DNA from: Deltaproteobacteria bacterium
GTDB lineage: Bacteria > Desulfobacterota > DSM-4660 > Desulfatiglandales > HGW-15
Length of the DNA: 39,402 nucleotides
Assembly: GCA_016931115.1 (NCBI GenBank)
Contig: JAFGFM010000225.1
Location: forward strand, 1-39,402
Direction of reading: 5' to 3'
This document shows positions 3,625 to 39,402 of this stretch, piece by piece (the first letter of the stretch is position 1; each line of letters starts with the position of its first letter). The notes under the pieces were generated by a model, which saw only the letters and a program-made list of their open reading frames with translations, had not been told where the DNA came from and ran no database searches. The translations under genes were made by a program, and so were the position numbers.

Positions 3625-5265
3625 ATGGCTGAATATCACGAGATTACTGTATTGCCCGAAGGTAAGAAAATAATGGCTGAGGCGGGTAAAACCCTTATGG
3701 ATGCGCTATCTGAACATGTTGAGCTCAGGGCAGACTGCGGGGGCAATGGCGTCTGCGGCAAATGCCGGATTATTGTAGTTACAAAGGGGATGCCTGACCT
3801 TAATGATGTTGAAACAGAACATCTTTCATCCGGCCTTATTACATCAGGTTACAGGCTAGCATGCCAGGTAGTGGTTGACAGGCCCATGATGGTGCGCCTA
3901 CCTGAATCAGGTCAGGATAAAGGGCATGTGGAGGCAAAAAAGGTCTTTCCAGGGCCTTACCCTGTGAACCCATACCTTGAACTGAAAGCGGATAAACGAT
4001 ATCTGGGGCTTGCCGTAGACCTTGGCACCACCACGGTTGCAGGATACCTGTGTGACCTTAAGACAGGTCATATACTTGCCTCCAGGGCAACCATTAACCC
4101 GCAGAGGCGGTACGGGGATGATGTGATAAGCCGAATCAACTTTGCCGGTAAGAGTCCTGCAAACCTGAAAAAGCTTCAGGGGCTTGCGCTTGAGGCGATA
4201 TCATACCTTGCGGATACCTGCCTGAAGGAGGTAAAGGCTTCACGTGATGATATATATGGGTTTACTGTTGCAGGCAACAGCACCATGGAACATATACTTG
4301 CCGGGCTGGATGTGAGCAGGCTTGGAAGAACGCCTTTTGTACCTGCCACCCTGTCTGAGATAAAACTCACCACAGACGAACTCGGGCTCAAATTCAGGGC
4401 CGGTACAAGTTTTACTATACTCCCCATAATAGCTGCATTTGTGGGCGGCGACACCCTTGCCTGCGTGCTTGCAAACAAACCCTACATGCGTGATGAGATG
4501 ACCCTTATTGTTGACCTCGGCACCAATGGCGAAATAGTCCTTGGCAATAAAAAGGGCATGTGGACAACGAGCTGTGCAACAGGCCCTGCCCTTGAGGGGG
4601 CACAACTATCATGCGGCATGAGGGCGACTTTAGGCGCCATAAGCGCATGCGCAATTGAACCTTCTACATATAAATTCAGCTATAAAACTATCGGTGAAGA
4701 TACCGAGCCCCCTCTGGGGTTTTGCGGTTCAGGAATACTTGACCTTATTGCTGCAATGATCAAAAGCGGCATGGTAAAATCAGGCGGTAATTTTAATAAA
4801 AATGCCCCGGGGTTTACCACCTCTGACAAGGATGGTGGAGTGGCCAGGGTGGTCTTTGTGCCCGAAGAAAACAACCCGGCCAAGGTGGAGATATTTGTGT
4901 CCCAGCATGATATAAGGCAGGTGCAGCTTGCAAAGGCAGCGGTTGTGACAGGCATAAGGGAACTTATGAGCAAGGTTGGGATAAAAAAGATAGACCGTAC
5001 CATACTGACCGGGGCATTTGGAAACGCCTTTAACTGGAGAAGCGCGGTTACTATTGGTATGCTCCCTGACCTGGAAACACTCGGAGAGGTTATTTCTACA
5101 GATAACCTGGCAGGGGAAGGAGCAGTATTGGCACTGCTGGATAAGAATACCCGCCTTGAGGCTGAGGAGATAAAGAGTAAGACCCAGTATATGAACCTTG
5201 CTGAACAGCCCGACTTTATGCAGAAGTTTGTAGAAAACACGGGGTTTGATGAGGCAAAGGAGTAA
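3625..5265 (+). CDS. Reductive activator of corrinoid proteins (2Fe-2S plus ASKHA ATPase)
   Basis: The 546-residue protein matches the RACE/AcsV-like family (DUF4445, ASKHA fold). These enzymes use ATP to return an oxidised cob(II)alamin cofactor to cob(I)alamin, and so reactivate corrinoid methyl carriers. Residues 1-90 form a plant-type [2Fe-2S] ferredoxin domain with ligands Cys38, Cys44, Cys47 and Cys80. A linker leads to the actin-like ATPase region from about residue 130, with phosphate-loop motifs YLGLAVDLGTTTVAGYL and LIVDLGTNGEIVLG and a C-terminal ILTGAFGNAFNW element. The length is slightly below that of the longest family members. The two methyltransferases, corrinoid protein and AcsE-like enzyme elsewhere in the window are its natural clients. 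It is transcribed alone from its own predicted promoter. Confidence 0.88.
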   Translation: MAEYHEITVLPEGKKIMAEAGKTLMDALSEHVELRADCGGNGVCGKCRIIVVTKGMPDLNDVETEHLSSGLITSGYRLACQVVVDRPMMVRLPESGQDKGHVEAKKVFPGPYPVNPYLELKADKRYLGLAVDLGTTTVAGYLCDLKTGHILASRATINPQRRYGDDVISRINFAGKSPANLKKLQGLALEAISYLADTCLKEVKASRDDIYGFTVAGNSTMEHILAGLDVSRLGRTPFVPATLSEIKLTTDELGLKFRAGTSFTILPIIAAFVGGDTLACVLANKPYMRDEMTLIVDLGTNGEIVLGNKKGMWTTSCATGPALEGAQLSCGMRATLGAISACAIEPSTYKFSYKTIGEDTEPPLGFCGSGILDLIAAMIKSGMVKSGGNFNKNAPGFTTSDKDGGVARVVFVPEENNPAKVEIFVSQHDIRQVQLAKAAVVTGIRELMSKVGIKKIDRTILTGAFGNAFNWRSAVTIGMLPDLETLGEVISTDNLAGEGAVLALLDKNTRLEAEEIKSKTQYMNLAEQPDFMQKFVENTGFDEAKE

Positions 5266-5335
5266 GCTGGAAGCTCAAAGCTTAAGGCTCAAGGCTCAAA
5301 GCTTAAGGCTCAAGGCTCAAAGCTGGAAGGTGAAA
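5266..5335. repeat. Tandem heptamer array (GCTYAAR type)
   Basis: Ten consecutive 7-base units start one base after the stop codon of the activator gene. Units are GCTGGAA, GCTCAAA, GCTTAAG, GCTCAAG, GCTCAAA, GCTTAAG, GCTCAAG, GCTCAAA, GCTGGAA and GGTGAAA. The internal units form a 21-base higher-order period (GCTCAAA-GCTTAAG-GCTCAAG). An open reading frame passes through because 21 is a multiple of three, but the predicted peptide is only a repeat of K/S-L-R-L-K-A-Q and is not credible as protein. Related heptamers lie at 7721-7755 and 37751-37813. Confidence 0.9.
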
Positions 5336-5626
5336 AAGCTACTAGGGCAGAGGGTGGGTTCGAGCCTGAATGAAGCCAGGGTGTATCAGTGGGTGACAGA
5401 AGGCGGTCATAATGTGCCTTCAGACAAGATCCATTCCCGCATAATAAGGACAATGGAGAACATGAAAACAGCGTTAACCCTGGTGGATGAGGCGTGGATT
5501 TTGGATAACTCTTCAGAACAAAACCGATTTAAACAAATAGCTGTGATGAAATCCGGAAGATATGAAATAAAGACCGATCCAATCCCTGATTGGGTCAGGA
5601 CTATTCTGCCTGTTGAGATCAAATAA
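5336..5626 (+). pseudogene. C-terminal relic of a zeta-toxin-like P-loop kinase
   Basis: About 95 codons encode RVYQWVTEGGHNVPSDKIHSR followed by RIIRTMENMKTALTLVDEAW and LDNSSE. This pattern is characteristic of the C-terminal half of zeta-toxin-like or COG4185-type predicted kinases, where a GGHNVP segment and an R-x3-R helix precede a W-x-L-D/F-D-N-S strand. The N-terminal half, including the Walker A motif, is absent; the heptamer array sits in its place. The reading frame has no start or ribosome binding site of its own. I interpret it as the surviving 3' end of a gene whose 5' part was lost. Family assignment is by motif memory only. Confidence 0.6.
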
Positions 5627-5643
5627 ACCTTACATTACCCCCC

Positions 5644-5922
5644 TCAAATATAAGCTGTATCAAAAAATGTTACCCCTGAATCCAAAACTTCCTCAAGATA
5701 ACCGAGCAGTTTATCTGCATCGGTCGTATCAGTAACCATACCGTCTGCGCCAAGGCCGAGAATAGGTACTTCTACACCTGTTTTTCCTAAAACACGCTTT
5801 GGTAATTTTGAAACGGGAGGAGAGTCCAACCCAAACGATTCAAGTGATGACAAGGCGATTGCACCAGTAGCAAAGCCAGCAGCTTTTACAATAAATTCAC
5901 GACCGGTAGATTTATTATCCAT
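5644..5922 (-). pseudogene. 5' fragment of an aldo/keto reductase gene with a Tat-like leader
   Basis: The 92-codon fragment starts with a good ribosome binding site (GGAAGGGG, seven bases before the ATG at 5922). It encodes MDNKSTGREFIVKAAGFATG, a leader like those of secreted aldo/keto reductases, then LPKRVLGKTGVEVPILGLGADG and GVTFFDTAYI. These correspond to the first beta strands and the catalytic Asp-Thr-Ala-Tyr region of the family. A TGA then replaces the expected continuation; two Gly codons follow, as in the normal family motif, before another stop. About 200 further residues, including catalytic Lys and His, are missing. Homology stops where the zeta-like relic ends on the opposite strand, so two truncated genes abut tail to tail. 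Confidence 0.7.
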
Positions 5923-5988
5923 ATTAAATTCCCCTTCCAATGATTTTTGAGTTACGAAATAGTTTTGTGAAATCGGATAACAGGTAGA

Positions 5989-6011
5989 AGGTTGGGTCAA
6001 TGACCCAACCT
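5989..6011. promoter_or_regulatory. Perfect 11-base inverted repeat upstream of the reductase relic
   Basis: The arms AGGTTGGGTCA and TGACCCAACCT are exact reverse complements separated by one base. The site lies about 70 bases upstream of the aldo/keto reductase start and about 40 bases from the end of the CoiA-like gene. The near-zero loop fits a protein-binding operator better than an RNA hairpin, and no T run follows. It may be an operator left behind with the truncated reductase, or a recombination site; neither is shown. Confidence 0.45.
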
Positions 6012-6050
6012 GACTGACTGTCAACGGTATAGGTCAGACACCAAAGGCTT

Positions 6051-7010
6051 CTACAACATTCCACTGTATTCTGCATAAGCAGCTATTGCCATCATATCTT
6101 GCTCAAACGAAAGTGACGAATCTTCCTGGCAATCTAGCGCGAAAAATGGGCCATCTGGTTCACTATACAAGTAGAAATCCCCTTGAATGGAATGACAATA
6201 AGGACATGTGTTTACCCAATACTTATCTCCCACAGTTTTTGAGAAACGATATTGAACAGTCTTGGGAGGTGGTTTCACTTTAGGAGCCATATCATCGTGC
6301 ATCCCCTCTTTAGGCCAGGCAAAAACGATAATATCTCTCTCGCATTTCCAGCAATTACATAACCCATAACGATAGTAGGTTGAGGGGAGTTCTAAACCAG
6401 TGGCTTGAGCAAATCTTTTTACTTTCGTCATAAATTTTGTATATTTCTGCTTGCATTTTTCACAGGTGCATGGCTTGAAACCATCACGTATAGGGTTCCA
6501 AATTGTTGGATCGTCTATTACTGCATAACCATCCAATTCGATTAAAGGTATTTGTAATTTATCGGCTTTGATACTGTCCACTGCATGTGCAACTTTGATC
6601 TCCACCGCCGCATGTGCCACATCACCCACCATTAAAGCTACATCGACAATAGAACCATCAGATAATCTATGCTCTAAAATGGCTTTATCCACCTTTTCCG
6701 GCAAAGGCTGACTGACAGGTAAATGACAGATATGGCACGCTCTCGCTAGATTCGGGGGATTACTTTTTCCTGATTTCCAGTCTTGAACCATTTTCTGCAC
6801 TAACAGTTTAGCGGTTTTATGTGTAATAGTTTCCTGATTACATGTATCACTTATTTTATGTGCGAAGTGAGTTGTCTTGATTTCGCCTTGTTTAAGGATA
6901 ACTTTCTCACCACAACAAGGACAGAAATAGTTTTTGCTTTTTTCTGCTGTTGTAGGTCTACATAATTTCAATTCATCGTCTATAGCAAATGGAATACGTA
7001 ATTCTAGCAT
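6051..7010 (-). CDS. CoiA-like zinc-ribbon nuclease (orphan)
   Basis: The product is about 319 residues with the start at 7010; a GTG two codons earlier is an alternative and neither has a strong ribosome binding site. The N-terminal part resembles competence CoiA proteins: a C-x2-C zinc knuckle (CPCCGEKVILKQGEIK) followed by HFAHK. A PD-(D/E)xK-like core lies around residues 113-142, with Glu115, Asp125 and Glu139-x-Lys141 in DVALMV and AAVEIKVAH, expected to bind metal and cut DNA. Further C-x2-C pairs (CHIC, CTCEKC, CNCWKC, CPYC) give up to five zinc knuckles, more than a minimal CoiA. Neighbours are gene relics and repeats, which suggests an accessory or transferred gene. A role in DNA uptake or defence is inference. 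Confidence 0.65.
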   Translation of the reverse strand: MLELRIPFAIDDELKLCRPTTAEKSKNYFCPCCGEKVILKQGEIKTTHFAHKISDTCNQETITHKTAKLLVQKMVQDWKSGKSNPPNLARACHICHLPVSQPLPEKVDKAILEHRLSDGSIVDVALMVGDVAHAAVEIKVAHAVDSIKADKLQIPLIELDGYAVIDDPTIWNPIRDGFKPCTCEKCKQKYTKFMTKVKRFAQATGLELPSTYYRYGLCNCWKCERDIIVFAWPKEGMHDDMAPKVKPPPKTVQYRFSKTVGDKYWVNTCPYCHSIQGDFYLYSEPDGPFFALDCQEDSSLSFEQDMMAIAAYAEYSGML

Positions 7011-7118
7011 AATCACTTATCTCGTTATTTGGAAAGCACACAATGAAAAGTTTACAAGCCAGCACTGCTTTCCTTTAAAGTTCATTAATAGAATACATTT
7101 TTCGCCTTAATGTAAATG

Positions 7119-7313
7119 TTAGCACTTTATGTCAAACATTGTGACAACTGAATAGTCCCCATCATACTTTTGTTCGATAATTTCAATAGCCGCTACTAAA
7201 TCCTTATTTTGAATTACCTTATTTTTCTCCGAGATTATTTTTTTCTCTATAATGGCATCCTTATTAATTAACCTATATAGATTATCTTTAATAATTTCTG
7301 CATTTCCTATCAA
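7119..7313 (-). CDS. Small hypothetical ORF, doubtful
   Basis: A 64-codon AT-rich frame encodes a Lys/Ile-rich helical peptide ending in YDGDYSVVTMFDIKC. It starts with TTG, has no ribosome binding site, and I recognise no family. The C-terminal segment looks protein-like, so it may be the tail of a decayed gene. Confidence 0.2.
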   Translation of the reverse strand: MIGNAEIIKDNLYRLINKDAIIEKKIISEKNKVIQNKDLVAAIEIIEQKYDGDYSVVTMFDIKC

Positions 7314-7792
7314 AACTAATAAAATTATTACTGTTTATCATTCCCTTATAAAAAGGGCAAAAGATTGGCAACAAAAAGGGTAAAGCCTGCCGTTTTGCTA
7401 ACTGTTTATCATGAAAATATTCATGTTAAAATAAAACCTTTTTATTACAACAGAGACAGAAGCGTGAATCGGAAACTTATATCTGCCATCCGAAGTTACA
7501 AAGGGAAATCAGCCGTAAATGGATTCCCCGATAAACCGGGATAAATGACCCGCTTTCGTAGAAATGATTGGTAGATATTTATGTACTGATAGAGGCAACC
7601 CCCTGTGGCTGCCCGAAATTACTGGCCCTTGCAATATCTCAAGAGCAGGCACAGAGGCCTGCCCCTACATTAACATCAATCAATTTCTACTTTACTATGC
7701 GACATGGTCTCTTACAACGCAAACCGAAAACCTTAAACCTTAAACCGCATACCTTTTGCATCTCACCAGTTTAGAAATGCAACAGGATTAAA
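7314..7792. other. Gene-free stretch with degenerate repeats
   Basis: About 480 bases without a credible gene. Around 7500-7560 the text ATGGATTCCCCGATAAACCG resembles the widespread intergenic repeats built on TGGATTCCCG. Around 7640-7672 GAGCAGGCACAGAGGCCTGC followed by CCCTAC resembles another dispersed palindrome (GCAGGC...GCCTGC). A heptamer array follows at 7721-7755. This looks like an accumulation site for small repeats downstream of the methyltransferase operon. Confidence 0.4.
7721..7755. repeat. Tandem heptamer array (AAACCTT type)
   Basis: Five heptamers run in tandem: AAACCGA, AAACCTT, AAACCTT, AAACCGC, ATACCTT. The unit is related to the TTAAACC/TTTAGGC units at 37751-37813. 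The array lies some 40 bases beyond the 3' end of the UroD-like methyltransferase gene, again next to a gene end. Confidence 0.75.
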
Positions 7793-8842
7793 TCAGGCCA
7801 GTCTGTTCAGCGCTATCCTGCTCAGCTTGTATATGGCCTCACCCAGCTTCGGGTGTGTTTTCTTATGCATAGACATGGCAAATACTGCAACTGGCGGTTT
7901 ATTGGGCCTACAGTAGTAGTCTATAAAATCCTTGAGCGCAGCATAGAGCTCTTCCTCGGATATCTCCGGGTCAATATCCGGCGGGGAGATACCCAAAAAG
8001 AGTTTGTCACCATAGTTTTCATAAAGCTTTTTGTGGTTGTTCATGGGCTGTGGTGTCCAGGTCTGTACGCCAGCTTCTATGTACAAAGGCGCAAGGGTCT
8101 CGGTCTTTCCGCAGGAGTGCATATCAACAAAGGCACCCCTTTTCTGGATATGGAAAAGCACCCTTTTAAGTGACGGGAGGATCATCCTCCTGATTGTGTC
8201 AGCAGAAAAGAAGGGCGCCATCTGTGAGCCCCAGTCATCATGAAATGATATTATCCTGGGGCTACCATATTCCATGTATTTATCAACAAGCTTTATGTAA
8301 AAATCGGCCTGCTTATCAAAGAACTCAAGTATTGCCGCCTCCTGATCCTCATCAATAATGGCCATGGCAGCGTTTGCAAAATCCATGAACGAGATCAGGC
8401 GTTCAAATATCCCGTTCAGTATTGTAACATGGGATATCCTGTCTTCTTCAGGCTTTATACTATCCTTATAGGATTTCCAATCGTATTGATCAAGGTCAGG
8501 GAAGGTGATCGTCTCTTTCCATGTGTTCATGTCTGTAATGTAGGGTTTACCCGGTTTGCGTGTGGCACCGCCTGCAACAGGTACAAAGACCCATTCAAGG
8601 CCGAAAAAGTCCTTGCCGCCCTTGAGCCTGGCCTCATTATCAGGTAGAAACCCGCCCATAGACATACTGATGTCACTCATGGTCGGGAGCCAGAACGGTC
8701 TTTCACCCCTTATTACCATCTCATAGTTCTGTGCGGGTGTGATAGGTGTATTGTATTTTAATAGCAGCGGCATCCCGGGAAAGGGCACGGGATATTCGCC
8801 AATTACCTTCAACTCATTATCTGAAAATGGTATTCTGTTCAT
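7793..8842 (-). CDS. UroD-fold corrinoid methyltransferase, paralogue A
   Basis: With the ATG at 8842, preceded by AGGAGAG, the product is 349 residues; an upstream extension of the frame overlaps the neighbouring gene and is not credible. It belongs to the uroporphyrinogen decarboxylase-like family that includes MtaA, MtbA and the O-demethylase component MtvB/OdmB. Visible elements are SFHDDWGSQMAPFFS and the zinc-site signature DMHSCGK, in which His-x-Cys would bind the zinc that activates the methyl group or acceptor thiolate, plus a Cys near the C-terminus (YYC). It probably moves a methyl group from a methylated substrate to the nearby corrinoid protein. It follows its paralogue by 22 bases, so both share a transcript. 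The substrate is not readable from sequence. Confidence 0.82.
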   Translation of the reverse strand: MNRIPFSDNELKVIGEYPVPFPGMPLLLKYNTPITPAQNYEMVIRGERPFWLPTMSDISMSMGGFLPDNEARLKGGKDFFGLEWVFVPVAGGATRKPGKPYITDMNTWKETITFPDLDQYDWKSYKDSIKPEEDRISHVTILNGIFERLISFMDFANAAMAIIDEDQEAAILEFFDKQADFYIKLVDKYMEYGSPRIISFHDDWGSQMAPFFSADTIRRMILPSLKRVLFHIQKRGAFVDMHSCGKTETLAPLYIEAGVQTWTPQPMNNHKKLYENYGDKLFLGISPPDIDPEISEEELYAALKDFIDYYCRPNKPPVAVFAMSMHKKTHPKLGEAIYKLSRIALNRLA

Positions 8843-8864
8843 AACAATCTCTCCTGTATAATTA

Positions 8865-9944
8865 CTATCCCCCAAACTTTTTCCTGGAAAGCCTGTAAAG
8901 CTCTTCCCTGAATGCAGGGGTGAGCAGTGGCATTGCATAAAAATTGAGCATTGCAGGTTTATCCCTGTTGCAGTATTTTTCAACAAAGTCTGCGGCAGCT
9001 GCACGCTGTTCGTCCTCGGTTGCATCCGGTGGAAGAGGAGGCGGATTAATGCCTATAATCAGTTTATCTCCATATTTTTCATAGAGCATCAGTGAGTCAT
9101 TCATGAGCTGCGGGCCCCATGAATCCCAGCCTGCTTCAATAAGCTGTGGCACCATCAGCTCGATCTTGCCGCAACTGTGAAGATCGGCAAAGATACCCCT
9201 GTCATGGAGATGGTCTGTAAGCCTTCTCATTGCAGGGACAATCATCTCCTGTGCCGTTGCTGGTGAAAAGAATGGAGCCCTCTGAGCGCCCCAGTCATCA
9301 TGTATGGTGATGCCATCTATGCCATAATAATCTATCATCCGGTCAATAATGCCGATATAAAGATCAGTGAGTCTTTCAAACAGTGCCTTTACCGCCTCTT
9401 TCTGGTCTTCATCAATCAGGGCAACAACCGCATTGTCAAAGTCCATAAAGGAGATAAGCCTTTCATAAAAACCTGTAAGAAAAAATGGCTGAACAAAGCG
9501 ATTCGCTTTCTTAATGTGCTCCCTGTTTGATTCAGCAGAACCTATCCAGTCCCATTTATCTATATCAGGGAAGATGAGTTTATCTTCCCATTCATTGGCA
9601 TCTTTTAAAATGGGTGAACCGGGTTTAACCATTGAGCCGGTCGCAACCTCCACATATTCCCATTCAACACCGAACATGTCCTTTCCGCCGTAATCTTTGC
9701 GATCAAGCACATAGCTCTCTATCACAAAGGCCCTTGCTATATTATCAGGGATGATCTTCGGGTTAAACATCAGGGTATCTGATGGCAGAATCTGCCAGAT
9801 CGGGTCTCTTTTATAAAATGAGCGATATGCCTCTCTTTGTGTTACAGGATAGTTAAAAACAGGGACACCGGGCGTACCGGGGAAAAAGCCGGGGATTTCG
9901 CCAACAATCTTCAGTTCATCTTCAGAAAAGGGGATTTTAACCAT
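8865..9944 (-). CDS. UroD-fold corrinoid methyltransferase, paralogue B
   Basis: The 359-residue protein begins at an ATG with AGGAGAC upstream. It is clearly homologous to the downstream paralogue, sharing the N-terminal IPFS(E/D)(D/N)ELK start, the HDDWG(A/S)Q...PFFS element, the HSCGK zinc motif (DLHSCGK here) and the YGDKL...GI(N/S)PP segment. It differs in the region that shapes the substrate pocket (GIDGITIHDDWG versus GSPRIISFHDDWG), so the pair may handle different methyl donors or form a heteromer. It would act as the first methyltransferase of an O-demethylase-like system. A strong terminator-like hairpin separates it from the corrinoid gene upstream, so expression may be uncoupled from that gene. 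Confidence 0.82.
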   Translation of the reverse strand: MVKIPFSEDELKIVGEIPGFFPGTPGVPVFNYPVTQREAYRSFYKRDPIWQILPSDTLMFNPKIIPDNIARAFVIESYVLDRKDYGGKDMFGVEWEYVEVATGSMVKPGSPILKDANEWEDKLIFPDIDKWDWIGSAESNREHIKKANRFVQPFFLTGFYERLISFMDFDNAVVALIDEDQKEAVKALFERLTDLYIGIIDRMIDYYGIDGITIHDDWGAQRAPFFSPATAQEMIVPAMRRLTDHLHDRGIFADLHSCGKIELMVPQLIEAGWDSWGPQLMNDSLMLYEKYGDKLIIGINPPPLPPDATEDEQRAAAADFVEKYCNRDKPAMLNFYAMPLLTPAFREELYRLSRKKFGG

Positions 9945-9995
9945 AGGAAGTCTCCTCAGTATGATCAGTATAAAAGGAAGGGTAAAACAATAAAA

Positions 9996-10030
9996 AAATC
10001 TGTCCCGCCAGTTATAAACGGGACAGATTT
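9996..10030 (-). terminator. Intrinsic terminator after the corrinoid protein gene
   Basis: Perfect 12-base arms (AAATCTGTCCCG at 9996-10007 and CGGGACAGATTT at 10019-10030) flank an 11-base loop. Read on the minus strand the stem is followed by a run of seven T. It lies 19 bases after the corrinoid gene stop and before the paralogue B methyltransferase, so it should cut or reduce read-through into the methyltransferases. Confidence 0.85.
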
Positions 10031-10048
10031 AAATAAAAATATTCCAGA

Positions 10049-10681
10049 CTAGGCAATAATACTTTTTGCCAGGTCGGCTGCAGATGCTGCATCCTCTGCA
10101 TAGCCGTGAGCGCCTATTTCATCAGCATAAGCCTTTGTGATCGGGGCGCCGCCAACAATTATCTTTACCTTCTCCTTGAGACCTGCATCAATAAGACCCT
10201 TTACTGTATCTAACAGGGCCGGCATGGTTGTGGTAAGAAGACATGAAAGGGCAACAATCTTGCACTCAGGGGTTGAGTTGATGGCTTCGATAAACTTGTC
10301 TGTTGATACGTCAACGCCAAGGTCTATCACCTTGAAACCTGCTGATTCGATCATCAGTGTTACGAGGTTCTTGCCTATATCATGAAGGTCACCTGCTACT
10401 GTACCGATTATGCATGTTCCTAATGATACAGAGGCCTGGCTTGCAAGCAGTGGCTGTAATACCTCAACACCCTTCTTCATTGTATGGGCTGCCATAAGCA
10501 TTTCAGGAACAAATATCTCTGACCTCTTGAATTTGTCACCAACAATAGCCATTGCGGCTATCATGGTATCAAGTATCAGTGTTGCTTCGTTGCCTTCTGC
10601 AAGAGCGCCTTTTACAGCCTCAGCTATCAGTTTCTGTTTTCCTTTTTCGGTAAGTTCTTTTACTTCTGCTAATTTAGACAT
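10049..10681 (-). CDS. Corrinoid (methyl-carrier) protein, MtaC/MtvC type
   Basis: The 210-residue protein has the two-domain layout of methyltransferase corrinoid carriers. A helical cap (residues 1-85) is followed by a Rossmann-like B12-binding domain. The cobalamin signature D-x-H-x-x-G is present as Asp98-Leu-His100-Asp-Ile-Gly103 (GDLHDIGKNLV); His100 is the expected lower axial cobalt ligand. The accompanying S-x-L (VALSCLL) and GG (IIVGGAP) motifs are also present. It would accept a methyl group from the UroD-fold enzymes and give it to the AcsE-like methyltransferase; the ferredoxin-ASKHA activator would repair oxidised cobalt. A GGGAGG site precedes the start. Its leader contains the relic of a second AcsE-like gene. 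Confidence 0.92.
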   Translation of the reverse strand: MSKLAEVKELTEKGKQKLIAEAVKGALAEGNEATLILDTMIAAMAIVGDKFKRSEIFVPEMLMAAHTMKKGVEVLQPLLASQASVSLGTCIIGTVAGDLHDIGKNLVTLMIESAGFKVIDLGVDVSTDKFIEAINSTPECKIVALSCLLTTTMPALLDTVKGLIDAGLKEKVKIIVGGAPITKAYADEIGAHGYAEDAASAADLAKSIIA

Positions 10682-10682
10682 T

Positions 10683-10975
10683 TAATGCCTCCCTTTTCTA
10701 TTATTGTTTTTTAAACTGAACAATTCTGCTCTGTACGCATTGATAAATTCCAGACAGAAATCATCCTTCTTAAGCAGTATCTCTCTAGCGTAAACAGACC
10801 CGGCATATCCCTGGTGGGCGGGTCTGGAATTGCGCTGTGCATTCCCGTGTTCATTGCCAGCATAAGAAATGCCTGATTAATATTTTCCTGCTGGCAGAGC
10901 GAATGAGATACTGCTCAATCCGCCGGTTACATGTATCCTTGGATACATTTCCTCAAAATTATTTAGTCCATTACA
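10683..10975 (-). pseudogene. Decayed 3' end of a methyl-THF:corrinoid methyltransferase
   Basis: The minus-strand text upstream of the corrinoid gene can be read, with at least two frame changes, as a damaged AcsE-like C-terminus. One frame gives YPRIHVTGGLSSISFALPAG, a second gives NQAFLMLAMNTGMHSAIPDP then RDMPGLFT, and the first frame resumes with AREILLKKDDFCLEFINAYR. These line up in order with YPTIHVTGAASNVSFNLPAR, NQAFVVVAMTAGMDSVILDP, KDMRGMIF and FCIDYINAYR of the intact gene at 13856-14671. Stops interrupt every frame. The relic ends at a stop that directly abuts the corrinoid ATG, which suggests an ancestral methyltransferase-corrinoid gene pair. Confidence 0.8.
10931..10948. promoter_or_regulatory. 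Perfect 8-2-8 dyad near the predicted transcript start
   Basis: ATGTATCC and GGATACAT are exact inverted repeats separated by TT. The centre lies about 20 bases downstream of the predicted -10 box on the minus strand, where a repressor could block initiation. The same bases also encode the YPRIH stretch of the relic gene, so the symmetry could be a coding accident. Confidence 0.4.
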
Positions 10976-10988
10976 TCAATAATGTCAA
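10960..10988 (-). promoter_or_regulatory. Predicted promoter of the corrinoid gene
   Basis: On the minus strand TTGACA (10988-10983) is followed after exactly 17 bases by TAAATA (10965-10960). The -10 box overlaps the upstream end of the decayed methyltransferase, so the transcript would carry about 270 bases of relic sequence as leader. I saw no cobalamin riboswitch signature in this leader. Confidence 0.55.
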
Positions 10989-11143
10989 CGTTTTAAGATA
11001 TACAAGAAACACTTTTACATGTAAGGCATTAAATTTTTAAATATAGGCACATAACTTATTTAAAAAACCCATATCTTGTATAGATGATTATCATGATGAT
11101 ACCATCTATGGAAAAACCTGAAAAAGGTTTTACTGATAACCCC

Positions 11144-11172
11144 TTGACGGAGTTAATATTTTTACCTATTGT
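11144..11172 (+). promoter_or_regulatory. Predicted promoter of the DUF1573-yqeB operon
   Basis: TTGACG (11144-11149), a 17-base AT-rich spacer and TATTGT (11167-11172) form a plausible sigma-70 promoter about 100 bases before the ATG at 11271. The surrounding 230 bases are AT-rich and contain nothing else recognised. Confidence 0.45.
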
Positions 11173-11270
11173 TTAAAAAAAATGATCCCCATATGAAAAA
11201 AATAGATTAACATATTATTAGATGCTATGTTTGAACAAGGTTTTCATAGTTTGGAAAAGGAATTTTTAAG

Positions 11271-11984
11271 ATGAAAAAACTCAATATGAAACTTAATATC
11301 AGTTATTTTTTATATACCCTTATGATATTCAGTATTTTACTGACAGCAGGTGTTCCGGGTACCACCTTTTCGGCACCTGCCGGTTTTGTTGATGAAAAGC
11401 TCTTTAATTTCGGAACAATCCTTGAAGGTACAGATGTGCCTCATAATTTTATTATTGAAAATCGTGGTGATTCAACCCTAAGGGTGTTAAAGGTAAAATC
11501 CAATTGTGCATGTGCAGTTGCATCCTTCACCGAAGAGGTAGCACCGGGCAGTAAAGGCACTATCTCCGTGATTTTTGACAGCAGGGGATCAGGCGGCCAG
11601 GATGTGGAACATAAGATACGCGTGGAAACTGATGACCCGGATAAAGGGGAGATAGACCTTGCGATTGCAGGGCATGTAGACCCCATATTGATTATCAGGC
11701 CTGATGTGGTAATCCTTTCTGGCAGGGAGGGTGAAGATCTGAAAGCTGAGGTTTTGATAACTCATGACATCAGGCATCCTTTAAGGGTAATCTCAGCCGA
11801 ATCAAAAAGGGGAAATATCTCTGTTAAACTCACCGAGGAAAAGGATTCTGACCAGAACAAATATATGGTTAAGGTTACAAGCTTAAAAAAGGAAAAAGGG
11901 AAATTCGGAGATTATATATCACTGAAAACAGACAGCAACGTATATCCCAGCAAACAGATAAGGGTTAAAATAGAGATAAATTAA
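11271..11984 (+). CDS. Secreted DUF1573 (Ig-like) protein
   Basis: The 237-residue product has a long hydrophobic signal sequence (about residues 8-35, ending TTFSA) and then a DUF1573/HYDIN-like immunoglobulin-fold domain. The pattern is typical: FNFGTILEG near the domain start, FIIENRGDSTLRVLKV, a Cys-rich SNCACAV where family members carry C-x-C, PG(S)KGTISV, and VETDDPD near the end. A second, less conserved beta domain fills the C-terminal half. Such proteins are periplasmic or surface-exposed and their function is mostly unknown. AAAAGG precedes the start. The yqeB gene follows after 5 bases, so the two are co-transcribed although no functional link is known. Confidence 0.8.
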   Translation: MKKLNMKLNISYFLYTLMIFSILLTAGVPGTTFSAPAGFVDEKLFNFGTILEGTDVPHNFIIENRGDSTLRVLKVKSNCACAVASFTEEVAPGSKGTISVIFDSRGSGGQDVEHKIRVETDDPDKGEIDLAIAGHVDPILIIRPDVVILSGREGEDLKAEVLITHDIRHPLRVISAESKRGNISVKLTEEKDSDQNKYMVKVTSLKKEKGKFGDYISLKTDSNVYPSKQIRVKIEIN

Positions 11985-11989
11985 AGGTA

Positions 11990-12793
11990 ATGAATAAAAA
12001 CAATACAATCTTAATAAAAGGTGCCGGAGAAAAGGCAAGCGCTGTGGCATGGGGGCTCTTCTCCCATGGGTTTAAAAGGCTTATAATGACAGATATAGAA
12101 AATCCCCTGGCAGAAAGAAGGGGTGTCTGTTTTTCCGAGGCGGCATTTGAGCAGGGAAAAGAGATAGAGGGGGTCAGGGTTGAAAGATCCGACCTCTCTA
12201 TTGATTCCATAAATTCTATTTTTTCAAAGGGGATAATACCTCTCCTTGTATCCCCCGATGAGACGCTGTTACAGGGTATACACCCCGACATTATTGTTGA
12301 CAGCATCATGGCAAAAAGGAACACAGGTACATCCATAGAGCAGGCGCCACTTGTGATAGCCCTTGGCCCGGGCTTTAATGCCGGAAAAGAGGCGCATTAT
12401 GTCATTGAAACAAACCCCAATATCCCGGCCCTTGGCACTATCATAGAATCAGGATATGCGGAACAACACACAGGCATACCCACAGAGGTGCGTGGTAAAT
12501 CGGTTGAAAGGCTTTTATTAGGCCCCGGAACCGGCGTGCTTTATGCCCTTATGGATATTGGAGACCCGGTAAAAAAAGGAGATACAATAGGGTATGTGGG
12601 AGACAAAAAACTCCTTTCGCCCATTTCTGGTATAGTGTGGGGGCTTATACGTACCCCTGCCACCGTAAAAGAGGGGCAGAAACTCGGGGATATACACCCG
12701 GGTAATGACAGCCAGATATGTTTCAAGATTACACCCCAGGCAAAAAAAATCACTGCCGGGGTGATCGGCGCTATCGTAAGAAGATATCTTTAG
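11990..12793 (+). CDS. yqeB: YqeB, selenium-dependent molybdenum hydroxylase maturation protein
   Basis: The 267-residue protein matches the YqeB/EF2563 family, which marks genomes with selenium-dependent molybdenum hydroxylases. The N-terminal part is a nucleotide-binding-like fold (ILIKGAGEKASAVAWGLF). The middle carries ALGPGFNAGKEAHYVIET and the ALGTIIESG segment. The C-terminal half looks like a biotinyl-lipoyl-type beta barrel (GDPVKKGDTIGYVG...SPISGIVWGLI). Genes usually found with yqeB (yqeC, mocA-like, selD) are absent here. A molybdenum hydroxylase operon lies about 24 kb away on the other strand and is a possible client. The exact biochemical step is not established. Confidence 0.85.
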   Translation: MNKNNTILIKGAGEKASAVAWGLFSHGFKRLIMTDIENPLAERRGVCFSEAAFEQGKEIEGVRVERSDLSIDSINSIFSKGIIPLLVSPDETLLQGIHPDIIVDSIMAKRNTGTSIEQAPLVIALGPGFNAGKEAHYVIETNPNIPALGTIIESGYAEQHTGIPTEVRGKSVERLLLGPGTGVLYALMDIGDPVKKGDTIGYVGDKKLLSPISGIVWGLIRTPATVKEGQKLGDIHPGNDSQICFKITPQAKKITAGVIGAIVRRYL

Positions 12794-12892
12794 ATTTTGA
12801 TTCATACGACATGGCAGAAGCCTGGTGCAGGTAGACTATCCAGAAATGTCATATATTTTAATAAAACAACAATAAATTGGAGTTATTTTCAA

Positions 12893-12921
12893 TTGACATA
12901 CAACTCCGAACTCCATATACT
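12893..12921 (+). promoter_or_regulatory. Strong predicted promoter of the porin-like gene
   Basis: TTGACA (12893-12898), an exact 17-base spacer and TATACT (12916-12921) make a near-consensus promoter about 65 bases before the ATG. The -35 region shares ATTTTCAATTGACA with the activator-gene promoter at 3564. The ribosome binding site is a full AGGAGG. Confidence 0.7.
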
Positions 12922-12986
12922 TCATCCAATTCAACCGAAGACTTGACCTATCGGCAAATTTAAACACGTATAACTAGGAGGAAAAA

Positions 12987-13718
12987 ATGTACAAAAAATT
13001 GTTAAAAAATTTAGTTATGGTTGGTCTTGTTGTTCTTACTCTTGGATCTTTGCCTGCATTTGCAGAGGATGATGACTCCCTCTCAATATCAACTGATGTA
13101 GGTGTTTTTTCTCAGTATGTATGGCGTGGCTATGCTTTAAGTGATGAGAGCATAGTTATCCAACCGTCAGTCAGTTTAGGATACAAAGGTTTTGGCTTAA
13201 ATGTTTGGGGAAACTACGATACGGATTATTTTGATACAGGAACTGATTACAATGAAACCGATATTACATTATCATATGACTGGACATATGAAATAATCAA
13301 ATTGGGAGTAGGCTACATTTATTATGATCTCGATTTTGAGGATACTCAGGAGTTTTATTTATCAGCAACTTTTGAAGGCTACCTGAATCCAAGCTTTACA
13401 TTCTACAAGGATATTGAAGCAGCGGAAGGTTGGTATGTCAATTTCGGCGTATCACATTCTTATGCTATTACAACCCTGTACAACCTGGATCTGTCAGCAT
13501 CGATTGGATACTATGATCTTAATGATGATTCCTACACTGAACTGCATGATGGAAATATTACCGCATCAATGGTTCTTCCTATTAATGACAATTTAAGCCT
13601 GACACCTTCTCTTTCATACGTTATTGGGATTTCAGAAGATGCCAAAGATAGAATAAGAGATTATAAGGGGAATTCTGATCACTTTGTTGGTGGTTTTACC
13701 TGTACCTATTCTTTTTAA
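12987..13718 (+). CDS. TorF-like outer-membrane beta-barrel protein (Gcw_chp family)
   Basis: The 243-residue product has a signal peptide ending at PAFAED, then a repeated alternation of hydrophobic and aromatic residues typical of beta strands. The opening SISTDVGVFSQYVWRGYALS matches the TorF/Gcw_chp family, in which an R-G motif follows the first strand, and the chain ends in Phe (FTCTYSF) as outer-membrane barrels do. Acidic Asp/Glu-rich turns would form the loops. Family members are putative porins of unknown specificity. Strong promoter and AGGAGG signals suggest high expression. It is monocistronic, bounded downstream by two strong hairpins. Confidence 0.82.
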   Translation: MYKKLLKNLVMVGLVVLTLGSLPAFAEDDDSLSISTDVGVFSQYVWRGYALSDESIVIQPSVSLGYKGFGLNVWGNYDTDYFDTGTDYNETDITLSYDWTYEIIKLGVGYIYYDLDFEDTQEFYLSATFEGYLNPSFTFYKDIEAAEGWYVNFGVSHSYAITTLYNLDLSASIGYYDLNDDSYTELHDGNITASMVLPINDNLSLTPSLSYVIGISEDAKDRIRDYKGNSDHFVGGFTCTYSF

Positions 13719-13749
13719 ATAGAACAGCCTAAACGCTGGCTCAATATTG

Positions 13750-13783
13750 AAACCCTTTCTGATATTTCAGGAAGGGTTTTTTT
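13750..13783 (+). terminator. Intrinsic terminator of the porin-like gene
   Basis: AAACCCTTTCTGA pairs with TCAGGAAGGGTTT (13 base pairs with one G-T wobble) around a short loop and is followed by a run of seven T. It lies 31 bases after the stop codon at 13718. Confidence 0.9.
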
Positions 13784-13803
13784 CAATCCTTCCAGGGATG
13801 TAA

Positions 13804-13844
13804 AATAAAAGGTGTCAGAGTTTTCAACCCTGACACCTTTTATT
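13804..13844. terminator. Bidirectional terminator between convergent genes
   Basis: Perfect 15-base arms (AATAAAAGGTGTCAG and CTGACACCTTTTATT) flank an 11-base loop. Runs of A and T on both sides let it work in both directions. It lies 11 bases after the stop of the minus-strand AcsE-like gene and downstream of the porin terminator. Confidence 0.9.
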
Positions 13845-13855
13845 ATTAAATAAGA

Positions 13856-14671
13856 CTATTTTTTTACTGGTGGGACGCCAAATATACCTTCTCTGTAGGC
13901 ATTTATGTAATCTATGCAGAACATATCGTTGCCAAGCAGGGCATCTGTAGCGAAAATCATGCCCCTCATATCCTTGTTCAATGGATCAAGAATTACGCTG
14001 TCCATACCGGCGGTCATGGCTACAACAACAAATGCCTGATTCATCACCTTGCGGGCAGGAAGGTTAAACGAGACATTGCTCGCGGCCCCTGTCACATGAA
14101 TAGTGGGGTAGCGAACCTTTATCTCTTTAATTACCTCAATCAGCATATTTATGCCATTTTCTGATGCGCAAAGCATTTCCACCAGGGGGTCAATGTGAAG
14201 ACGGGAAGGATCAATATTATATTTCTTTGCCTTTGCCATAAGGTCTTCCAGTATCTTAATGCGTATTGCAGCGGTCTTTGGGATTCCGTTGGCGTCGTCA
14301 CATAAGAGGGCAGCAACCTCCCATTTAGTATCTGCAATAACAGGAAAGACATCTTCTACCTTGGTCCCTTCCATAGATACTGAATTGATCAGGCCTGGTT
14401 TTTTACAAAATTTGGATATCTCTGCACAAAGTTTGGCATTGGGGCTGTCTACCGCTATAGGGGTATCTGTAGCCTCCTGAACCTGCTCTACCATCCATTT
14501 AAGGGTTTCAAATTCAATAGCCGGGGCAACTGAGGCGCACACATCAATATAAGTAGCACCTGCTGCTGATTGAACCTTTGCCAGGTTCTTTATAAACTCT
14601 GCGTCCCTCGCTTCTATCGCCTTGGCTACAGAAGGGATAGATCCATTTATTTTTTCGCCAATAATAATCAT
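13856..14671 (-). CDS. AcsE-type methyltetrahydrofolate:corrinoid methyltransferase
   Basis: Starting at the ATG at 14671 (GGAG upstream) the product is 271 residues, normal for the family; the longer frame only adds non-homologous residues. It folds as the pterin-binding TIM barrel of AcsE/MeTr and the MTII component of O-demethylases. Residues seen where AcsE has its folate-binding set are Asp43 (IDVCAS), Asp75 (AVDSPN), Asn96 (GLINSVS), Asp161 (HIDPL) and Asn199 (GAASNVSF). It would transfer the methyl group between corrinoid protein and tetrahydrofolate. It stands alone, 3.2 kb from the corrinoid gene, whereas a dead homologue abuts that gene. It probably now serves the same system from a distance. 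Confidence 0.88.
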   Translation of the reverse strand: MIIIGEKINGSIPSVAKAIEARDAEFIKNLAKVQSAAGATYIDVCASVAPAIEFETLKWMVEQVQEATDTPIAVDSPNAKLCAEISKFCKKPGLINSVSMEGTKVEDVFPVIADTKWEVAALLCDDANGIPKTAAIRIKILEDLMAKAKKYNIDPSRLHIDPLVEMLCASENGINMLIEVIKEIKVRYPTIHVTGAASNVSFNLPARKVMNQAFVVVAMTAGMDSVILDPLNKDMRGMIFATDALLGNDMFCIDYINAYREGIFGVPPVKK

Positions 14672-15167
14672 TGTTATTTCTCCGTTTACTATAAGTTTAA
14701 ATAAATATAAAACATTAAATATTAAACATACGGCTGATAATTTTGCAGGGGAAATATGCCAATTGAACCGGCAAACCTTGGAAATAACCAGCCTTTCTAG
14801 GGTCCTGTAAAGACTTCCTGTTCCTGTTTTCAGGCAATGCACTATAAAATTTCTGATAAAGGATGTCAAACCAAAATAAACTCCCCCAAGGCTGGCTTAT
14901 ACTATAATATTATCAAGCATACGAAGGTGTTGGCTGAAAAAGTCACCTTTTTCATCACCTTGACAAGGCTCTATCCGGTCAAGATTTTGACATATTTTCG
15001 CTTGGTTATTCCATTTTTATCTGTTTTTCCAAATCCCTACTCAAATCAACATGGTAAAGAATTGATTTAATTAATTAAAAACTCCAAGTCACCCCTATGG
15101 CAGGAATCTTGCTATATTATGTTTATTTACCCTTATATGGCAAATGGCAGAGGGATGAATAGTCAAT
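14672..15167. other. Divergent intergenic region between AcsE-like gene and sensor kinase
   Basis: About 500 bases with no credible gene. It must hold the promoters of both flanking genes, though no convincing pair of boxes is clear for either. Two small inverted repeats stand out: AAGGTG...CACCTT around 14923-14960, and CTTGAC...GTCAAG around 14960-14987. These could be regulator sites. Confidence 0.4.
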
Positions 15168-36787: not shown

Positions 36788-37732
36788 TTAACTGGCAGCC
36801 AAAATGGCCCTTTTTACCATTACCCTGGCTATCTGCACCTTGAATTTTGTCGCATTAAGCGGCCTTGCATCAGCAACCGCTGCTGTACCTGCCTCTTCTG
36901 CAATCTTTTCACTGATCTTTTTTCCTTTAATAACCTCTTCCGCCTTTATTGCCCTGTATGGTTTTGGTGCAACAGCATTGAGGCATACCCTGGGGTTTTT
37001 CCCGGTCATAACCGCACAGTTTACAATTGGGAAATCTATGGATTTCCTTAATGCAAACTTGATAAAGGCACTTTTTGCGCCTTTAGGAGGCGCAGGTATC
37101 TGAATCTCGGTGATGACTTCATCCTTTTCAAGCACGGTATTTCCTGGCTGTTTTACATCAAAGAAATTTTCCGCCTCGATTTGCCTTCTGTCTGTAACAA
37201 CCTTTGCGTTAAGGGCAATCAGCGCTGGCGCAGTATCGCTCGGATGCACTGCAATACAGCCACCTACCGCCCCGAATATGGAGTGGTACCTGTTATCGCC
37301 TGTCATTGCAAAGCATGTGTTTCCACCCTTGCGCTTGCAGTCAAAGCGGTTTTCAGGCTTTCTGAAATACCAGCATCGGTGGAGTTGAGCAATATTGCCG
37401 GCTATGGTGCCCATGTCACGTATATGAGGCGTTGCAACACGTGATGCCGCCTGTGCCAGTGCAGTGTATTTTTTCTGGATGTTTGGATCAGCAGCAATAT
37501 CGGCCAGGTGCGTAGCCGCCCCTATCTTAAGTACGCCCCCCTCTTCCTTTATATAATCCATGCCGGGAACAGTCTTGAGATTAATTACTGTAGAGGGATA
37601 GTCCCTCAGGATATTATCCTTAAGTGTGCCAACAAGATCAGTCCCTCCGGCTATCAGTGTTGTCTTGCCATCAGCAAGGGCTGTTTTGATCTCTGCAATT
37701 GATGTTGCATTTGTATGATTAAATGGTCTCAT
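36788..37732 (-). CDS. Xanthine dehydrogenase-family FAD subunit with extra four-Cys loop
   Basis: The 314-residue protein matches the FAD-binding subunit of molybdenum hydroxylases (CoxM/XdhB/HcrB). The FAD-binding motifs LIAGGTDLVG and TIAGNIAQ are clear. An insertion after the second motif holds four Cys: HRCWYF, then Cys 12, 20 and 39 residues further (FDCKRKGGNTC ... VGGCIAVHPSD). 4-Hydroxybenzoyl-CoA reductase beta subunits hold an additional [4Fe-4S] cluster in an equivalent loop, so the same is likely here. The subunit passes electrons between FAD and the iron-sulfur subunit. It lies between the molybdenum subunit and the IscA-like gene. The [2Fe-2S] subunit is not in the window. Confidence 0.9.
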   Translation of the reverse strand: MRPFNHTNATSIAEIKTALADGKTTLIAGGTDLVGTLKDNILRDYPSTVINLKTVPGMDYIKEEGGVLKIGAATHLADIAADPNIQKKYTALAQAASRVATPHIRDMGTIAGNIAQLHRCWYFRKPENRFDCKRKGGNTCFAMTGDNRYHSIFGAVGGCIAVHPSDTAPALIALNAKVVTDRRQIEAENFFDVKQPGNTVLEKDEVITEIQIPAPPKGAKSAFIKFALRKSIDFPIVNCAVMTGKNPRVCLNAVAPKPYRAIKAEEVIKGKKISEKIAEEAGTAAVADARPLNATKFKVQIARVMVKRAILAAS

Positions 37733-37817: not shown

Positions 37818-39402
37818 TTAAATTTTCCCAAGCGCCTTAAGCACCTTGTCAGGTGTGGCAGGCGGATCCACCCATTTGCCAATCGCATTGTAAATAGCGC
37901 AGATTATAAGATGCGTATTTGCCATTGAATGGCTGATACCGTTAGCACCGTATACACCGTTTCCGGCGCGGGTTTCTATTAATTCAGGCTCCTTAACATC
38001 AGTTACATCCAGCATACCCGCTTTCTTGTACTCAATATAGTTATGGTTAAGTTTTACACCTGTTTTTGGATCGTAGAAATAGTCCTCATAGAGCTGGCAT
38101 CCTTGGCTGAAGATCGCAACCTGGTTAAGCTGACTTTCAAGGGAGGTAAGCCTTATTACCTTGCCGGAGTCAACAGCCGCTTCGTATCTCAAGACTTCTA
38201 CTACCCCGGTTTCTTCATCCACTGCTACTTCACAATAAAGGGTATTTAAAAGATCATACTTGCTTGGCCATAAAGGATTTGGCGCACAGCCCGCAAATGT
38301 CGCGTATACATTTGACGTAAGGCTCTTAAGCGGAACACCCTTTGAGTTATCTGACTTAAGCACTATCATACCGTCTATTATATCAAGATCTTCAGGCTTT
38401 TTACCTTTTAATGGGTTTGGAGCGGCCTTTTTGGGCGGGCCAAATCCGAATCCTCCCATTGCCGGTTTTTCGGCCTCGGCAATAGCTGCCTCAAAGATTT
38501 CCTTTCTTAATTTGTGAGCGCATTGTTTTAAAACCCAGCCGGTATTTACAAGTCCGTCTGCCCCTCCGCTTATGGAGACAAACATTGCATTGGGATCATA
38601 ATCAATGCTGATATCCTCGAACCTGAGGCCGAGTTCTTCAGCAGCGATCATTGTAACCCCTTCAACTGAAAATACCCCTGCATGAGGTCCCTGAATAGGC
38701 AAATGAACTACACCGTCCCTGAGTTCCAGTACGGCATGAAAATCCGAACCCATTGAGTGTCTCGGGCACATCTGGTAACGGAAACCGGCACCGTGGAGCC
38801 TTCCGTCTTTAAGCCTCTTTGCACCGTTTTTATGCCACTTCCAGTTCATCATCTTCTTTCCGGCTTCGATACACGCGTCAAAGCTTGGAACAGGCCTGTT
38901 GTCATCCTGACCGTCAGGACCGTGAAGATTGATTCTTGCGATATCAATGGGGTCTTTTCCGAGTTTTTCGGCTATGGCATGTATTGCCATTGTGACAGCG
39001 TCCCAGTTAAAGGGACAGAACTGTGAGCTGAAGGCCATAAGACCGCGATTGCTGTCTACAATATCCATGTTCTGTCTTATATTCTTACATTTTGTGCCAA
39101 TGTACGGACTGTAGCCCTGGTCGCCCGAGGTACCGAAGAATGAATTGCCCGGGGTCCCGCCATCAGCTATGGAGAAGTCATCAAATGCGGTAATTGTACC
39201 GTCTTTTTTAAAGCCGACCTTCAGGTGCATAAAACGCTGGGAGACCATAAAGTCAAAGGTATCCTTGCGCTCATTTATACAGCGGACAGGTCTTCTGACT
39301 CTCTTTGAAAGAAAGGGAGTGATTTTCTGTGATCTTCGTATTGTCCAGTCACAGTATTTACCGCCCTGGAAGAGACCTTCCTGTACTGTTTTTTCAGGCG
39401 GC
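37818..39402 (-). CDS. Molybdopterin-binding subunit of a xanthine dehydrogenase-family enzyme (5' truncated by window edge)
   Basis: The frame stays open to the right edge, so only about the last 528 codons are present; the internal ATG at 39248 is not the true start. The edge-proximal residues (EGLFQGGKYCDWTIRRSQKI) and FGTSGDQGYSPYIGTKCKNI fit the molybdopterin domain of the family, as do SQFCPFNWDAVTMAIHAIAEKLGKDPIDI and the C-terminal VYGANGISHSMANTH. In typical members the last segment reads GAKGVGE, with the Glu as catalytic base; here His occupies that place. A Gly/Pro/Lys-rich linker (GFGFGPPKKAAPNPLKGKKP) interrupts the domain. The natural substrate is unknown. The FAD subunit and the IscA-like gene follow in the operon. 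Confidence 0.85.
   Translation of the reverse strand, partial: PPEKTVQEGLFQGGKYCDWTIRRSQKITPFLSKRVRRPVRCINERKDTFDFMVSQRFMHLKVGFKKDGTITAFDDFSIADGGTPGNSFFGTSGDQGYSPYIGTKCKNIRQNMDIVDSNRGLMAFSSQFCPFNWDAVTMAIHAIAEKLGKDPIDIARINLHGPDGQDDNRPVPSFDACIEAGKKMMNWKWHKNGAKRLKDGRLHGAGFRYQMCPRHSMGSDFHAVLELRDGVVHLPIQGPHAGVFSVEGVTMIAAEELGLRFEDISIDYDPNAMFVSISGGADGLVNTGWVLKQCAHKLRKEIFEAAIAEAEKPAMGGFGFGPPKKAAPNPLKGKKPEDLDIIDGMIVLKSDNSKGVPLKSLTSNVYATFAGCAPNPLWPSKYDLLNTLYCEVAVDEETGVVEVLRYEAAVDSGKVIRLTSLESQLNQVAIFSQGCQLYEDYFYDPKTGVKLNHNYIEYKKAGMLDVTDVKEPELIETRAGNGVYGANGISHSMANTHLIICAIYNAIGKWVDPPATPDKVLKALGKI

Follow-up and report, generated by a model that had tools for sequence, protein, structure and literature searches.

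A large subunit of the xanthine oxidase structural family, encoded at the end of a deltaproteobacterial contig, carries a histidine at the position of the catalytic glutamate. It belongs to a divergent, single-origin subfamily, here called GISH-type after its motif, in which this His is invariant and several other active-site motifs have been rebuilt. The best overall explanation, to which we assign a probability of about 0.5, is that GISH-type proteins are molybdenum enzymes that act mainly reductively on plant-derived aromatic compounds, with His in place of Glu. In the following, "the window" denotes the whole stretch of 39,402 nucleotides that was analysed (contig C48 of genome G000).

A histidine at the catalytic glutamate position

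The gene lies at the end of the window. Its minus-strand ORF comprises 527 codons, remains open up to the contig end and terminates ...GNGVYGANGISHSMANTHLIICAIYNAIGKWVDPPATPDKVLKALGKI. Contig C48 stops at 39402 and thus truncates the gene. In the encoded fragment, both MoCoBD_1 and MoCoBD_2 scored above the Pfam cut-off.

37818 to 39401, minus strand: 3' two thirds of the gene for a GISH-type large (Mo-cofactor-binding) subunit of the xanthine oxidase family, from the ORF and the Pfam domains MoCoBD_1 and MoCoBD_2
37929 to 37931, minus strand: CAT codon for the His found in place of the catalytic Glu, from the translation, within the motif GANGISH at 37929 to 37949

In the xanthine oxidase family, a conserved Glu has been described as the base that starts catalysis, and a review has proposed that it can also serve as a proton donor in oxygen abstraction (PMC10420851). 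Exchange of this Glu for Gln abolished the activity of mouse AOX1 (PMC2671166). A reading of the sequence alone had proposed that His replaces this Glu in the window protein, and the codon that it named was exact. The His occupies position 491 in the fragment, the surrounding segment reads GANGISHSMAN, and profile alignment places it opposite the catalytic Glu of the alpha subunit of 4-hydroxybenzoyl-CoA reductase (4-HBCR; GAKEASEG), of Mycobacterium CoxL (GAKGIGES) and of quinoline oxidoreductase (GIKGMGES). A paralogue on contig C98 of the same genome has the same His.

The sequence-only reading had also predicted a clade of homologues with a conserved GISH motif, and such a clade was found. 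In the survey, each clade member that covers the site reads G[IV][SA]H. In the joint alignment, the clade has His in 92 of 92 rows that extend across the site, and the other relatives compared have Glu in 20 of 20. One extra His among the low-scoring rows was taken to be a GISH gene fragment (L049 5285-6220). The clade therefore lacks the catalytic Glu of the C-terminal GxxGxGE segment that is typical of the family. A conserved Glu from another segment would speak against the replacement, but the active-site motifs of the clade yielded no substitute. A clade-specific Glu at position 241 (93/95) lies about four residues from the usual apical-Gln segment, a placement taken from the alignment and not from coordinates.

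The missing N-terminus, about 140 residues, was located at G000:C107:1-432(-) by a search of the window's own genome with the same-genus orthologue as query. The gap between the C48 and C107 parts is about 120 residues. Two further genes lie upstream of the N-terminus on C107.

C107:425 to 1144, minus strand: [2Fe-2S] subunit with a twin-arginine (Tat) motif
C107:1180 to 2229, minus strand: 349-aa protein without family match

In a genome of the same genus (G001, locus L028), the accessory protein and the [2Fe-2S] (S), large (L) and FAD (M) subunits are encoded in this order without interruption.

Two broken genes of the same type were also observed. A GISH-type large-subunit remnant with four stops is present at G000:C64:2446-2607(-) (locus L014), and an intact copy occupies the same place in the same-genus locus L027 (2485-4881). 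In L049, a second GISH-type gene consists of two well-matching halves (3857-5281 and 5285-6220(+)) with one in-frame stop between them.

Pocket motifs and extent of the subfamily

The sequence-only reading had described the rest of the subunit as intact. This was wrong, as two cofactor-contacting motifs are altered in the window protein.

39345 to 39365, minus strand: GGKYCDW in place of the canonical GGGFGG(K), from the alignment; Y, C, D and W are invariant in the clade
39018 to 39029, minus strand: SSQF, an altered RGxG loop that has lost its Arg, from the alignment; the Gln is invariant in the clade

The canonical form of both motifs is absent throughout the clade. In GG[K/R]YCDW, the residues Y, C, D and W are each present in 96/96 members, a conservation that is partly by construction because this motif was among the scan patterns; the His was in none of the patterns. 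Members recovered by whole-genome searches also have both the His and the GG[K/R]YCDW motif. The RGxG loop has become S/G-S/G-Gln, with the Arg gone and a new Gln in 96/96, and the GQG and GSR motifs are also replaced. The Asp of GG[K/R]YCDW is the sole new invariant acid within the active-site motifs, and it and the Cys occupy places that are mostly Gly in relatives. The FGG stretch packs against the Mo ligands in the xanthine oxidase family. The mapping of the active site relies on sequence and profile alignments together with fold matches, and the positions of residues relative to Mo are not from coordinates.

The fold itself is retained. The AlphaFold2 model of the Acidobacteriota orthologue L078 (pLDDT 84.6, pTM 0.86) had 4-HBCR (1rm6) as its top Foldseek match, with a TM of 0.78 over nearly the full length, and likewise gave near full-length VIA matches, with Z scores of about 28-34, to many large subunits of the family. 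Pfam, Foldseek and VIA thus all identified the fold with its MoCoBD domains. When the query profile A2, built from 68 homologues, was compared with the PDB, 4-HBCR alpha ranked first (E 1.2e-51), followed by quinoline oxidoreductase and CO dehydrogenase. The top NCBIfam match was TIGR03194, with 137.4 bits for L078 and 79.7 bits for the window fragment; as the cut-off is 994.55 bits, equivalog-level similarity to the 4-HBCR large subunit was not reached.

A scan of genome contigs gave 170 confirmed relatives and 80 loci. These loci belong to Bacillota (55, including 40 Oscillospiraceae), Acidobacteriota (22), "Deltaproteobacteria" (2) and Spirochaetota (1), and the clade includes Sporobacter termitidis and deltaproteobacterial metagenome-assembled genomes (MAGs). 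Full-length clade members scored at least 1292 bits against A2 and the best Glu-type protein 448 bits, and no intermediates between the two types were seen by A2 score. In the tree, one branch with an SH-aLRT of 100 separated 73 GISH rows from 18 Glu rows, so that a single Glu-to-His change is required; the tree program warned that long branches meet between deep groups. The rows of Acidobacteriota, Bacillota, Spirochaetota and deltaproteobacteria are interleaved, which suggests lateral transfer. The host genomes are MAGs from gut, rumen, digester and similar habitats with several copies apiece, for example six full-length copies each in the Acidobacteriota MAGs G443 and G444; Sporobacter termitidis has three. 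A plasmid collection contained distant relatives only, with at most 28% identity among the matches listed. The open-access literature searched, a scope mostly outside subscription papers and preprints, held no earlier description of the subfamily. Because the catalytic Glu is absent, the GISH-type proteins should not be filed as ordinary molybdenum hydroxylases; they are best classed within the xanthine oxidase structural family as a new variant.

Partner subunits, cofactor and neighbouring genes

Two genes follow the large-subunit gene in the window.

36788 to 37732, minus strand: FAD subunit (FAD_binding_5 and CO_deh_flav_C), with Cys 120, 132, 140 and 159 at the position of the [4Fe-4S] loop
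36456 to 36770, minus strand: IscA/HesB-type protein, above the cut-off of NF038090, 18 bases after the FAD gene and probably co-transcribed with it

The partner subunits of the family are thus present: the window encodes the FAD subunit, and an S subunit that has the two [2Fe-2S] domains is encoded on C107 as well as in relatives. Of the L genes that could be tested, 32 of 72 had an S gene directly upstream and 28 of 71 an M gene directly downstream, and many L genes stand without an S or M neighbour. Twenty of 31 adjacent M genes are long. The long M that was scanned, L039 9066-11411(+), contains a GltD-like NAD(P)H/FeS module of about 470 aa (Fer4_20 and Pyr_redox_2) immediately ahead of Cys number four in the [4Fe-4S] loop, and about 19 genes resemble this FAD subunit with its insert. 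A clostridial neighbour of about 780 aa had been considered a separate HdrA-like protein; this was rejected, as it is an FAD subunit with the GltD-like insert.

The FAD subunit has the [4Fe-4S]-binding Cys loop known from 4-HBCR, a feature that is not diagnostic of a reductase. Its best matches were 5y6q_B and PaoB; the loop is common to 5y6q_B, and 1rm6_B aligns through the region. Because the two best matches belong to oxidative enzymes, the loop was dropped as a marker of reductive direction. The Tat motif is present in the S subunits of Acidobacteriota and deltaproteobacteria and was not found in those of clostridia, so that the location of the enzyme differs between branches. The S subunits, for example L160 425-1144(-), L078 7040-7876(+) and L039 6013-6699(+), carry an N-terminal C2H2-like CPxC...H..H motif before the [2Fe-2S] domains.

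XdhC has been described as the chaperone usually needed by molybdoenzymes of the xanthine oxidase family (PMC2997495). In five genomes (G440, G451, G452, G453 and G454), the sole detected MoCoBD_2 proteins are GISH-type, and XdhC is encoded in 5/5, a circumstantial argument from genomes that are mostly MAGs and maybe incomplete. XdhC is about 2.5 kb from a GISH gene in G447. A MocA-like gene adjoins XdhC in G440, and G446 and G441 have MocA-like genes near GISH genes; the MocA-like genes score below the family cut-off. In our assessment, GISH-type proteins very probably bind an XdhC-matured molybdenum cofactor, with electrons passing along Mo, two [2Fe-2S] clusters, FAD and [4Fe-4S]. Cofactor binding itself carries some uncertainty because the Moco-contacting motifs GQG, RGxG and GGGFGG are altered. 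The sequence-only reading had left a choice between a different chemistry and a non-hydroxylase role; since the electron-transfer subunits and XdhC are kept, we infer that a change of chemistry is more probable than a non-enzymatic role.

Several neighbouring genes are of interest in their own right. A protein family of about 350 aa without Pfam or NCBIfam match is repeatedly encoded beside GISH-type genes and may be a dedicated chaperone.

Accessory family of about 350 aa: L160 1180-2229(-); L078 8895-9935(+); L064 8763-9902(+); L028 5602-6669(+); L027 167-1210(-); L014 127-1215(-)

For members of 346-349 aa, neither Pfam nor NCBIfam gave a match, and the structural model, built from two sequences, was poor (pLDDT 54.5). 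Genes named by eye as URO-D-type methyltransferase-like occur in 11 GISH loci, and FadH-like reductases in five. The window also encodes a RACo-like ferredoxin/ATPase, two URO-D-type methyltransferase-like proteins, a corrinoid-binding protein and a pterin methyltransferase-like protein (3625-5265, 7793-9944, 10049-10681 and 13856-14869); named by eye, the genes at 3625-14869 look like a corrinoid O-demethylation set. In L027 5046-6809(-) (G001:C48) and L014 2675-4441(-) (G000:C64), a conserved gene seems to be translated through an in-frame stop (GVSG-stop-DSCTSAV) in both genomes. This gene, possibly encoding a putative new selenoprotein, adjoins genes for an aldehyde-ferredoxin-oxidoreductase-like protein and a Tat FeS protein.

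Proposed reaction, alternatives and known enzymes

Our analysis gives about even odds that the GISH-type enzymes of anaerobes work mainly in the reductive direction, on aromatic or phenolic compounds of plant origin. In the clostridial forms, NAD(P)H would supply the electrons via the GltD-like module; in Tat-exported forms such as that of the window, a periplasmic donor would do so. The His, perhaps together with the invariant Asp or Cys, would take over from Glu. With the Asp as a possible partner, it would relay protons to or from a Mo-bound oxygen or a leaving group, and this relay would replace the carboxylate base that activates Mo-OH for hydroxylation. The proton-donor role proposed for Glu in oxygen abstraction could also be filled by His. 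A reductive precedent exists within the family, as 4-HBCR and Ucdh catalyse reductive dehydroxylations (PMC12771579).

We counted 4-HBCR as the closest match, the NAD(P)H-type modules and the anaerobic hosts as support for the reductive direction. However, 4-HBCR dehydroxylates reductively with its Glu in place, so that His is not needed for such a reaction; oxidative aldehyde oxidoreductases have a [4Fe-4S]-type loop as well; and GltD-type modules can run either way. The plant-aromatic substrate is the weakest step and is suggested by host ecology and by neighbouring genes named by eye. As for the hosts, methoxylated aromatics or cinnamate serve as substrates for Sporobacter and Papillibacter.

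The strongest competitor, which we consider distinctly less probable, is an oxidative molybdenum hydroxylase in which the His, the YCDW Asp or an Asp-His pair serves as the base and NAD(P)+ or a periplasmic compound as the acceptor. The subunit make-up and fold are of the hydroxylase type, the FAD subunit is most like those of aldehyde oxidases, His is in principle a competent general base, and a new invariant Asp lies inside an active-site motif. Yet Glu is the reported hydroxylation-starting base, its exchange for Gln kills mouse AOX1 (PMC2671166), and it is kept in all other relatives compared. In addition, the changes in other cofactor-contacting motifs suggest more than a base swap.

Somewhat further down the scale is a Mo centre without precedent in the xanthine oxidase family, in which the Cys of YCDW or the His would be close enough to ligate or directly protonate the metal site, coupled with reductive reactions on many plant aromatics and a lineage-specific expansion like that of the catechol dehydroxylases; we regard this as rather unlikely. 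Still less credence is given to a large subunit that no longer binds the Mo cofactor and now serves a structural or different purpose, or has taken on another ligand. The altered GQG, RGxG and GGGFGG motifs and the L genes lacking an adjacent S or M would fit such a loss, but the pocket motifs have been swapped for other invariant polar residues and have not decayed, S and M are retained in many operons, XdhC persists in genomes with no other detected family member, and the fold is intact. Finally, although the contig end cuts the gene and a decayed related fragment with internal stops exists elsewhere in the genome (C64), a sequencing error, frameshift artefact or decaying pseudogene can practically be dismissed, given a same-genus orthologue with 84% identity and the same His, two Acidobacteriota orthologues with 81-82% identity, an operon that carries on across C107, and the His of the C98 paralogue and about 90 further homologues (92/92 in the alignment), which rule out a sequencing error as its source.

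In a large uncharacterised bacterial family of oxygen-free habitats, the change from Glu to His together with the rebuilt motifs suggests that a metal site which has been studied in detail carries out a different chemistry here. As the His is natural and clade-wide, about 100 related enzymes are available for probing the role of the Glu position and a switch of chemistry within one fold. The multi-copy hosts from gut, rumen and digesters imply that these enzymes may cover a substantial, still uncharted area of anaerobic metabolism, perhaps that of plant aromatics.

Among known enzymes, 4-HBCR (HcrABC of Thauera aromatica, PDB 1RM6) is the best PDB-profile and NCBIfam match and has the same fold, and both it and the GISH-type enzymes occur in anaerobic hosts and have a [4Fe-4S]-type Cys loop in their FAD subunit. 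In contrast to the GISH-type, 4-HBCR has kept the catalytic Glu and GGGFGAR, and the identity is about 19-20%; the S subunit of the window enzyme differs by its Tat signal and its CPxC...H..H motif. Ucdh (UcdCFO) of Enterocloster bolteae, an enzyme of the xanthine oxidase family from an anaerobic gut clostridium that reduces a polyphenol, offers a functional precedent (PMC12771579). Its reported identity to 4-HBCR is 32.7%, and it is likened to the GISH-type by description and not by sequence. PaoABC of E. coli and the Methylobacillus aldehyde oxidase (5Y6Q) are heterotrimers whose FAD subunit shares this Cys-rich loop; unlike the GISH-type, they are oxidative aldehyde enzymes with the canonical Glu, and their large subunits share 17-20% identity with it. 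The S subunit PaoA is Tat-exported. The nearest relatives in the tree are a Glu-type sister group (G000:C219, L019, L033 and L144-L148) from the same kinds of genomes, and several genomes, including that of the window, encode both types. The small subunits of the sisters L019 and L033 also start with CPxC...H..H, as do GISH S subunits, whereas the large subunits of the group, with about 33% identity, have kept GIGE, GVGE or GLGE and have QG..[FY]GG or NGGMYGG where the GISH-type has GG[K/R]YCDW.
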